IMG/VR virus record: IMGVR_UViG_3300030103_004214
Location: 1-59,907 of that record
DNA length: 59,907 nucleotides
Source of the DNA: a virus
Strand: one strand, 5' to 3'
The stretch's first letter is position 1; each line of letters begins with the position of its first letter. The notes beneath the pieces are model-generated. The model worked only from the letters and a program-made list of their open reading frames with translations, did no database searches and was not told the origin of the DNA. A program made the translations under genes and the position numbers. This document shows, piece after piece, positions 11,896 to 12,788 of the stretch.

Positions 11896-12693
11896 ATGAC
11901 AAGTTTGATCGACCCAAAAAAGTATACGAAGACACTTGACCTATTAAGGTCATTTTTTTTGTCTAAAGGTTTCTTAGAAGTTCATACTCAGAACCGTTTA
12001 AGTATACTTGCTGCTTGTGAAGACCCAGAGACAGTAGCAACATACACATACAACGGTGAAATCTGGCCGTTACCTCAAACAGGACAAATGTGGTTAGAAT
12101 ATGAACTCCTGAAAAATCCTGATGTTCCTGGTTTCTTTTGCCTATCTACTTCCTATCGACAAGAACCTAATCCAGTTGCAGGTAGACACGAAGTAATATT
12201 TCCAATGTTTGAGTTTGAGATGCATGGTGGTATAGAAGAACTTAAAAAGATGGAAATTGAATTATGTAAACATCTTGGATTACCAGATTTAGAAATTGAA
12301 ACATATGATGATTGGACAAATATGTTCAATACAAAAGAATTAGATCATGATCACGAGGATAAAATTGGTTATGGTATGATTACTGACTTCCCAGAATTTA
12401 CATCTCCTTTCTGGAATATGTCGAGAAACGACGATGGTAAGACTAGTCGAAAGATTGACGTAATCTTAAATGGTATGGAAACAATTGGTAGTGCAGAACG
12501 TAGCACTGACAAAAAACAGATGCGTGATACCTTCCATACGATATCTGATGGCGAATATGCTAACTTACTTTACAAATTATTTGGTAAGGAAAGAGTTGAA
12601 AAAGAACTTGAAGAGTTCTTAGAGTTTGATTTCTTCCCTCGCAGTGGTGGTGGGATAGGAGTTACACGCATAATGCAAGCGATCCCTGATTAG
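11896..12693 (+). CDS. Class II aminoacyl-tRNA synthetase-like catalytic domain (Asn/Asp type)
   Basis: A 265-residue protein, the only plus-strand protein gene. Class II motifs are in order: motif 1 (GFLEVHTQ, 25-32), the AsnRS-like TGQMWLE (62-68), motif 2 (STSYRQEPNP then RHEVIFPMFEFE, 84-108) with the ATP-binding Arg, a METIGSAERS loop (194-203) like the EIIGGSQR region of AsnRS, and motif 3 GGGIGVTRI (251-259) with its Arg. So the active site looks intact. The N-terminal OB anticodon-binding domain of AsnRS, AspRS and LysRS is missing, as in AsnA, EpmA and the archaeal AsnRS-like asparagine synthetase. Substrate is unknown. An unusual tRNA lies 10 bases downstream on the same strand, which suggests a pair. 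No clear ribosome site or promoter is seen. Confidence 0.8.
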   Translation: MTSLIDPKKYTKTLDLLRSFFLSKGFLEVHTQNRLSILAACEDPETVATYTYNGEIWPLPQTGQMWLEYELLKNPDVPGFFCLSTSYRQEPNPVAGRHEVIFPMFEFEMHGGIEELKKMEIELCKHLGLPDLEIETYDDWTNMFNTKELDHDHEDKIGYGMITDFPEFTSPFWNMSRNDDGKTSRKIDVILNGMETIGSAERSTDKKQMRDTFHTISDGEYANLLYKLFGKERVEKELEEFLEFDFFPRSGGGIGVTRIMQAIPD

Positions 12694-12698
12694 GGATC
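12681..12698 (+). other. Perfect 7-bp hairpin over the synthetase stop codon
   Basis: GATCCCT (12681-12687), loop GATT, AGGGATC (12692-12698). The TAG stop is inside it, and the tRNA starts four bases later. There is no T-tract, so an RNA processing or stability signal between mRNA and tRNA is more likely than a terminator. Confidence 0.6.
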
Positions 12699-12702
12699 TC
12701 AA

Positions 12703-12788
12703 TGTGGGGTGGCGAAACTGGTAAACGCACTAGTCTGTTTAACTAGCGTTCCTGGCGGGACTTGTAGGTTCGACTCCTACCCTCACAG
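12703..12788 (+). tRNA. Atypical class II tRNA with anticodon GUU
   Basis: The 86 bases fold fully: a 7-bp acceptor (TGTGGGG with CCTCACA, one G-U pair), a 3-bp D stem with a Leu-like D loop containing GG, a 5-bp anticodon stem CTAGT/ACTAG with loop CTGTTTA (anticodon GTT, T at position 37), a long variable arm (GTTCC TGGC GGGAC), and a T arm GTAGG TTCGACT CCTAC. The discriminator base is G; CCA is not encoded. The scaffold is like tRNA-Leu, but GUU and G73 are Asn-type identity features, and Asn tRNAs normally have a short variable loop. T at position 37 is also odd. It could be an Asn-reading tRNA, a partner of the upstream synthetase-like enzyme, or a decayed tRNA-Leu. Confidence 0.85.

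Follow-up and report, generated by a model that had tools for sequence, protein, structure and literature searches.

Pyrimidine synthesis in six steps is regarded as an almost universal pathway. CarAB, PyrB (ATCase) and PyrC (DHOase) start from carbamoyl phosphate and Asp, and their product, dihydroorotate, feeds PyrD, PyrE and PyrF. Aminoacyl-tRNAs can also serve as metabolic substrates, which is illustrated by the use of Glu-tRNA in tetrapyrrole synthesis and by a staphylococcal tRNA-Gly that is dedicated to cell-wall synthesis and has poor translational features. A further precedent is the archaeal AsnA/AS-AR, in which a core derived from AsnRS/AspRS and lacking an anticodon domain acts in metabolism.

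Here we describe an enzyme gene and a tRNA within a phage window (the whole stretch of 59,907 nucleotides that was analyzed) that resemble each of these systems in part. We label the enzyme ASNL, a name used here for an AsnRS-derived family that includes the phage copy. ASNL has the catalytic fold and the L-E of the Asn pocket in common with AsnRS (class IIb), whereas it lacks the N-terminal anticodon-binding domain, scores far below AsnRS cut-offs and is found in pyrimidine operons. Its architecture is that of AsnA/AS-AR, but its pocket is AsnRS-type rather than Asp-type and its gene context differs. The product that we propose for ASNL is the same dihydroorotate that CarAB, PyrB and PyrC supply, although ASNL is an unrelated protein and would cover three steps with one enzyme, starting from Asn and CO2. 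The tRNA resembles staphylococcal tRNA-Gly and Glu-tRNA as a putative metabolic substrate, but it is phage-encoded, Asn-type and apparently tied to nucleotide supply through a synthetase-like enzyme. It also has the D arm and long variable arm of tRNA-Leu, a class II tRNA, but differs from it in carrying GUU, G73 and U37. A search of the literature for the pair, for ASNL or for an Asn route to dihydroorotate found no published account.

The synthetase-like core

The window, a single IMG/VR virus contig, covers late genes of a T4-like cyanomyovirus, and the pair is flanked by uvsY, gp19, gp23, gp22 and gp20 (Table 1). In a published table the gene is named merely 'tRNA ligase', within T4-GC 194 (Sullivan 2010). 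A reading of this DNA made from the letters alone (the sequence-only reading) had proposed a synthetase core followed by a complete tRNA, and both proved real and intact. The ORF matches PF00152 (tRNA synthetases class II D/K/N) with E=2e-15 and a score of 56.9 bits (cut-off 25). Of the three class II motifs that had been reported, motifs 2 (YRQE ... FPMFEFE) and 3 are intact, and motif 1 is weak because its Pro is missing. The protein consists of the catalytic core only, as had been claimed: the N-terminal OB domain (~100-130 residues) is absent, and alignments to solved AsnRS chains start only at residue ~140 of those chains.

Table 1. Positions in the window of the enzyme gene, the tRNA and their main elements
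Feature	Position	Strand	Description
ASNL ORF, 265 aa	11896..12693	+	Catalytic core resembling AsnRS, anticodon-binding domain absent; PHROG 29758 (unknown function)
Amino-acid pocket signature QTGQMWLE, residues 61-68	12076..12099	+	AsnRS-type Q-x-x-Q-x-x-L-E (alignments)
Motif 2 YRQE, residues 87-90	12154..12165	+	R88 and E90 in 109/109 sequences
Motif 3 GGGIGVTR, residues 251-258	12646..12669	+	G255 and R258 in 109/109 sequences
ASNL-linked long-armed tRNA	12703..12788	+	Anticodon GUU, G73, no encoded CCA
Anticodon loop CUGUUUA	12735..12741	+	U33, G34-U35-U36 (12737-12739), U37 (12740)
Variable arm, 17 nt	12747..12763	+	GUUCC/GGGAC stem, UGGC loop

The structure of ASNL was predicted with high confidence (AlphaFold2, pLDDT 91), and the closest solved folds are AsnRS structures with Asn-adenylate (1x54, 9sh8). 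This match, together with the pocket, bears out the AsnRS-like active site that had been proposed. Alignments show that AspRS carries K-Q where ASNL and AsnRS carry L-E, and the pocket residues Q61, T62, Q64, L67 and E68 are invariant in 109/109 family sequences. The presence of the AsnRS-type L-E pocket rather than the AspRS K-Q favors Asn as the substrate, and we infer that ASNL acts on Asn. ASNL scores well under the curated cut-offs of the enzyme families compared: protein P0001 (ASNL) scores 20.1 bits with the models for bona fide AsnRS (TIGR00457, NF003037; cut-off 342.6), 23.7 bits with the archaeal-type AsnA model PRK06462 (cut-off 389) and 25 bits with the model for the EF-P lysine ligase EpmA/GenX (cut-off 264), and the AspRS cut-off in NCBIfam is likewise far above its scores. 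Furthermore, the EGG flipping loop of AsnRS is replaced in ASNL by a near-invariant R-x-S-I-x-A-A-C-E-D-P block of its own, the position of which was assigned by alignment only.

The linked tRNA and its distribution in phages

The tRNA begins 9 nt after the end of the ASNL stop codon (12693 to 12703). It was called by ARAGORN as GUU and by Rfam as RF00005 (50.6 bits), and it scores 98.6 bits with the tRNA model R1 that we used; neither ARAGORN nor Rfam found a second tRNA within the window. The Leu-like D arm, the long variable arm, GUU, U37 and G73 are all present, as the sequence-only reading had described. To place these features in context, we compared 46 unique linked tRNA sequences, whose extraction required GUU, although ARAGORN run without that requirement reads GUU in nearly all. 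G73 occurs in 46/46, which along with the conserved GUU agrees with the Asn-type identity claimed earlier. All 46 have a pyrimidine at position 37 (45 U and one C). At position 33, 36 have U, nine have C and one has A, and the 1:72 pair is U:A in 43, with A:U in the other three. The variable arm ranges freely from 15 to 27 nt, with no short class I loop among the linked tRNAs. Among 90 other phage tRNAs that served as a comparison set, U33 is found in 84 and a purine at position 37 in 88.

All stems pair across 23 diverse copies, and double changes occur at 18 of the 20 pairs, which indicates a real folded RNA. The minimum-free-energy fold of the tRNA alone is not a cloverleaf (z=-1.3), and the structure was settled by covariation instead.

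These features divide into those that bear on charging and those that bear on decoding. U1:A72 is the pair read by GatCAB (PMC4206432), and 43 of the 46 linked tRNAs carry it. Relative to an elongator tRNA-Asn, the linked tRNAs have GUU and G73 but depart from U33, from the purine at position 37 and from the short variable loop. The elements for charging (G34-U35-U36, G73 and usually U1:A72) are thus kept while the needs of the ribosome are relaxed, which suggests that the linked tRNA is charged with Asn yet is not used for decoding. Two uses had been offered for the tRNA in the sequence-only reading: the non-translational use gains support from this pattern, whereas the decoding of Asn codons seems unlikely because U33 and purine-37 have been lost.

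We also examined how consistently the gene and the tRNA occur together. The Prochlorococcus phages P-SSM2, P-SSM5 and P-SSM7 have the same pair, annotated just as 'tRNA ligase' and 'tRNA-Asn'. The GenBank record of P-SSM2 puts tRNA-Asn at 164094-164179, ~2 kb from its true site at 162083-162168 (AY939844.2), which directly follows the 'tRNA ligase' gene; this misplacement hid the linkage of the pair. At least 594 ASNL relatives were confirmed in viral contigs, and among the best 80 of these at least 594 loci the tRNA lies ~4-12 nt or ~90 nt past the stop codon wherever the contig is long enough, with L084 as the sole exception. In a reverse scan that started from the tRNA, 88 of the 89 marine phage contigs with enough upstream DNA have the gene upstream. 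In the exception, L339, just 374 nt of DNA precede the tRNA, and in the related L093 the gene and the tRNA are separated by a similar small ORF. Protein P0003, when used as a query against viral contigs, returned no relatives.

The same kind of tRNA, 4 to ~1050 nt downstream of the gene, also occurs in another, more remote group of marine phages (L090-L097, ~51-54% identity to the huge-phage query), and in a quick tree the tRNA-linked phage enzymes occupy two separate places among the cellular ones. Chance adjacency of gene and tRNA was rejected on the strength of the reverse scan. A decaying tRNA-Leu, which would have made the pairing a coincidence, was also rejected, as GUU is conserved and the tRNA is almost never found without the gene. 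Taken together, these genomic comparisons show that the enzyme/tRNA linkage in marine phages is obligatory, as expected of the genuine pair that had been claimed.

Several viral loci depart from this arrangement. In the huge-phage branch ASNL is present and the long-armed tRNA absent; two such phages of 735 and 484 kb (L004 and L005; LR756501.1, LR756508.1) have 66 and 28 tRNA genes, with several isoacceptors each and including a short-armed tRNA-Asn. The linked tRNA of L096 (6314-6461) is an outlier that combines the anticodon GUC (Asp) with U1:A72 and U37. Its variable region spans ~75 nt, and the ~60-75 extra nt there may represent either an inserted segment or a giant variable arm. L220 (3479-6025), which is binned as Chloroflexi and looks viral, contains the enzyme, a GUU/U37 tRNA that encodes CCA and overlaps the end of the enzyme gene, and a small DHODH-like gene; no other phage-like case has a pyrimidine gene downstream.

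The cellular family and its pyrimidine genes

The enzyme had been taken to be phage-specific, and this part of the earlier reading did not hold. A scan of genomes with the family profile yielded 119 confirmed ASNL relatives, and homologues with 50-66% identity to the query are hosted by Gammaproteobacteria, Patescibacteria, DPANN archaea, Dependentiae, Chlamydiae, Bacteroidota and others, with relatives in Myxococcota as well; a search of plasmids found no ASNL homologue. By sequence comparison, the phage protein is a branch of this widespread, uncharacterized AsnRS-derived family of bacteria and archaea. The phage enzymes have the same residues at the 65 positions that are >=97% invariant across the whole family, and no catalytic difference was seen. 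The linked tRNA is absent from the 80 genome relatives kept of the 119, L220 excepted. When the tRNA model was applied to 26 cellular genomes, with 150 candidates scored in each, the best matches were tRNA-Leu at <=66 bits, compared with 76-99 bits for the linked phage tRNAs. That cellular carriers have no comparable tRNA implies that the tRNA is unneeded for the basic reaction. Rather than a phage-specific pair, this is therefore a pyrimidine-linked family of cells with a branch in phages, where a probably non-decoding tRNA is coupled to it.

The link to pyrimidine synthesis emerged from the neighbors of the cellular genes. By neighbor clustering, with identities from Pfam, pyrD, pyrE or pyrF lies in the same stretch in 27 of 77 cellular ASNL loci, 19 of them on the same strand and within 400 bp, and the commonest neighbors are OMP decarboxylase/orotate phosphoribosyltransferase and DHODH. 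In Pasteurella atlantica, for example, the ASNL gene sits between pyrD and pyrF-pyrE. In two patescibacterial loci (L152:2616-4916 and L197:3853-4944) an argininosuccinate-lyase-like gene lies in the operon of the enzyme, joined in L152 by an amidohydrolase gene.

Whole-genome searches of 25 carriers, which are mostly MAGs and were partly chosen for their pyr context, found ATCase, CarB and DHOase over the cut-off in 2 genomes each but DHODH in 22, the remaining 3 having no DHODH over the cut-off. Control genomes had ATCase in 14/14 and CarB in 14/14, and DHOase was detected in all of them, with only 11 over the cut-off. Of the two ATCase-positive carriers, one is a Coatesbacterium whose ASNL is divergent and the other is a Flavobacteriaceae MAG. 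AsnRS is over the cut-off in only 9 of the 25. On the Coatesbacteria chromosome (L173) the divergent family member lies beside ATCase and DHOase genes, two each over the cut-off; this coexistence raises the possibility that its branch does something else. A less biased test is provided by the Chitinophagales, in which ASNL occurs in 8 and ATCase is missing from 29 of 199 genomes: all 8 carriers are among the 29 without ATCase (pyrB; Fisher p=8e-8). Without two previously known carriers, 6/6 lack ATCase (p ~4e-6 by hand computation). The linkage to pyr genes and the exclusion of PyrB suggest that the family takes the place of CarAB-PyrB-PyrC, upstream of DHODH. A role for the family in pyrimidine synthesis is thus strongly supported by gene content and context, and we consider it highly probable that ASNL supplies dihydroorotate.

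In phages, a search of 20 records found no DHODH, which suggests that, the L220 contig excepted, the phages would depend on host DHODH. A search for the small PyrE in phages found no copy, and phage matches to the small PyrD and to PyrF came from unrelated phages.

A proposed route from asparagine to dihydroorotate

Because relatives of the enzyme occur in pyr operons of genomes without the first three enzymes, the phage pair probably feeds the synthesis of DNA building blocks rather than translation. The explanation that best fits our findings, which we hold with a little better than even confidence, is that phage ASNL is a dihydroorotate-forming enzyme and that the tRNA is its dedicated carrier of Asn. 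We infer a reaction in which Asn + CO2 + ATP yields L-dihydroorotate + AMP + PPi, and the underlying conversion (Asn + CO2 = dihydroorotate + H2O) balances exactly when computed. Dihydroorotate can be viewed as asparagine with one carbonyl that joins the alpha-amine and the amide. ASNL would first convert Asn to its adenylate in the manner of AsnRS. Addition of CO2 to the alpha-amine would then produce a cyclic N-carboxyanhydride (or an activated carbamate), and ring closure would come from the amide nitrogen of the side chain; alternatively, the carbamate itself may be adenylated. Dethiobiotin synthetase, which forms a cyclic urea from CO2, an amine and ATP, is a known analogue, and the replacement of the EGG loop by the A-C-E-D-P block would fit an altered chemistry around the amine.

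In cells, ASNL would replace CarAB, PyrB and PyrC and hand its product to dihydroorotate dehydrogenase (PyrD). In phages, it would feed pyrimidines past the feedback-controlled first steps of the host, with DHODH, PyrE and PyrF downstream being those of the host. The phage tRNA would be charged by the host, either by AsnRS or by a non-discriminating AspRS with GatCAB, its altered anticodon loop would keep it out of decoding, and the charged tRNA may then donate Asn to ASNL as a private carrier, a role that would be most plausible where tRNA-bound synthesis is the main source of Asn. If the ASNL family does supply dihydroorotate, the prospects that the tRNA takes part range from even to moderately good. 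Counting against this explanation are L084 and the huge phages, which have no such tRNA, and the A1:U72 pair of three linked tRNAs. The two carriers with ATCase, the three with no DHODH over the cut-off, the dependence of the phages on host DHODH and the lack of a comparable tRNA in cellular carriers also weigh against it.

The same tRNA-less loci favor the foremost alternative, that ASNL makes dihydroorotate from free Asn and that the tRNA is not a substrate but, for example, offsets a drain on Asn-tRNA, senses or regulates. Cellular ASNL, which has neither a linked nor a similar tRNA, fits this alternative too. However, the tRNA stands beside the ASNL gene throughout two well separated branches of the phage tree, and a tRNA that simply aided decoding would not be expected to have a pyrimidine at position 37 and a variable position 33, so we regard this alternative as unlikely, if still worth serious weight. 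An orthogonal synthetase/tRNA pair, in which the enzyme charges the tRNA with Asn (or another amino acid) to decode AAC/AAU during infection, would account for the AsnRS-like core and fold, the GUU anticodon, G73 and the obligatory linkage. It leaves unexpected both the loss of U33 and purine-37 and the relatives that lie in pyrimidine operons without the tRNA, from which the phage active site is unchanged; moreover, host tRNA-Asn already covers these codons, and we judge such a pair to be quite improbable.

Two further readings have little to commend them. An archaeal AsnA-type asparagine synthetase that raises the Asn pool would share the overall architecture of ASNL (kinship with AsnRS/AspRS but no anticodon domain), and AsnA structures 3rex/3rl6 are among the fold matches with the best target-normalized TM (0.64-0.66), but ASNL reaches just 20-26 bits against NCBIfam AsnA cut-offs of 322-389, its pocket has the AsnRS-type Glu instead of the AspRS-type Lys-Gln, and the pyr linkage and the missing PyrB and CarB would go unexplained, which makes this reading very improbable. 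Phages are known to carry tRNAs for reasons of defense conflict, and the loop altered at positions 33 and 37 could suit a decoy or a cleavage-resistant substitute against an anticodon nuclease or toxin that the enzyme keeps charged, but this reading accounts neither for the family's pyrimidine context nor for the exclusive linkage to the ASNL gene, and we find it the least credible of all.

Taken as a whole, the proposal of a dihydroorotate-forming ASNL with an Asn-carrying tRNA amounts to a second, non-homologous de novo pyrimidine route, present in both bacteria and archaea, that marine phages run from a dedicated, non-translating Asn-tRNA, a full claim that we advance tentatively, with its chances somewhat short of even. 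If it is correct, one enzyme would replace the first three pyrimidine steps, which would explain why pyrD, pyrE and pyrF occur without carAB, pyrB and pyrC in the reduced or symbiotic lineages Patescibacteria, DPANN, Dependentiae and Chlamydiae, and likewise in some Bacteroidota and Pasteurellaceae, and predictions of auxotrophy from genomes would change. It would also add another synthetase core that has been reused for small-molecule synthesis. For the phages, it would assign a concrete, testable non-translational role to a tRNA found in hundreds of marine phage contigs, in which a phage tRNA would act as a metabolic substrate.
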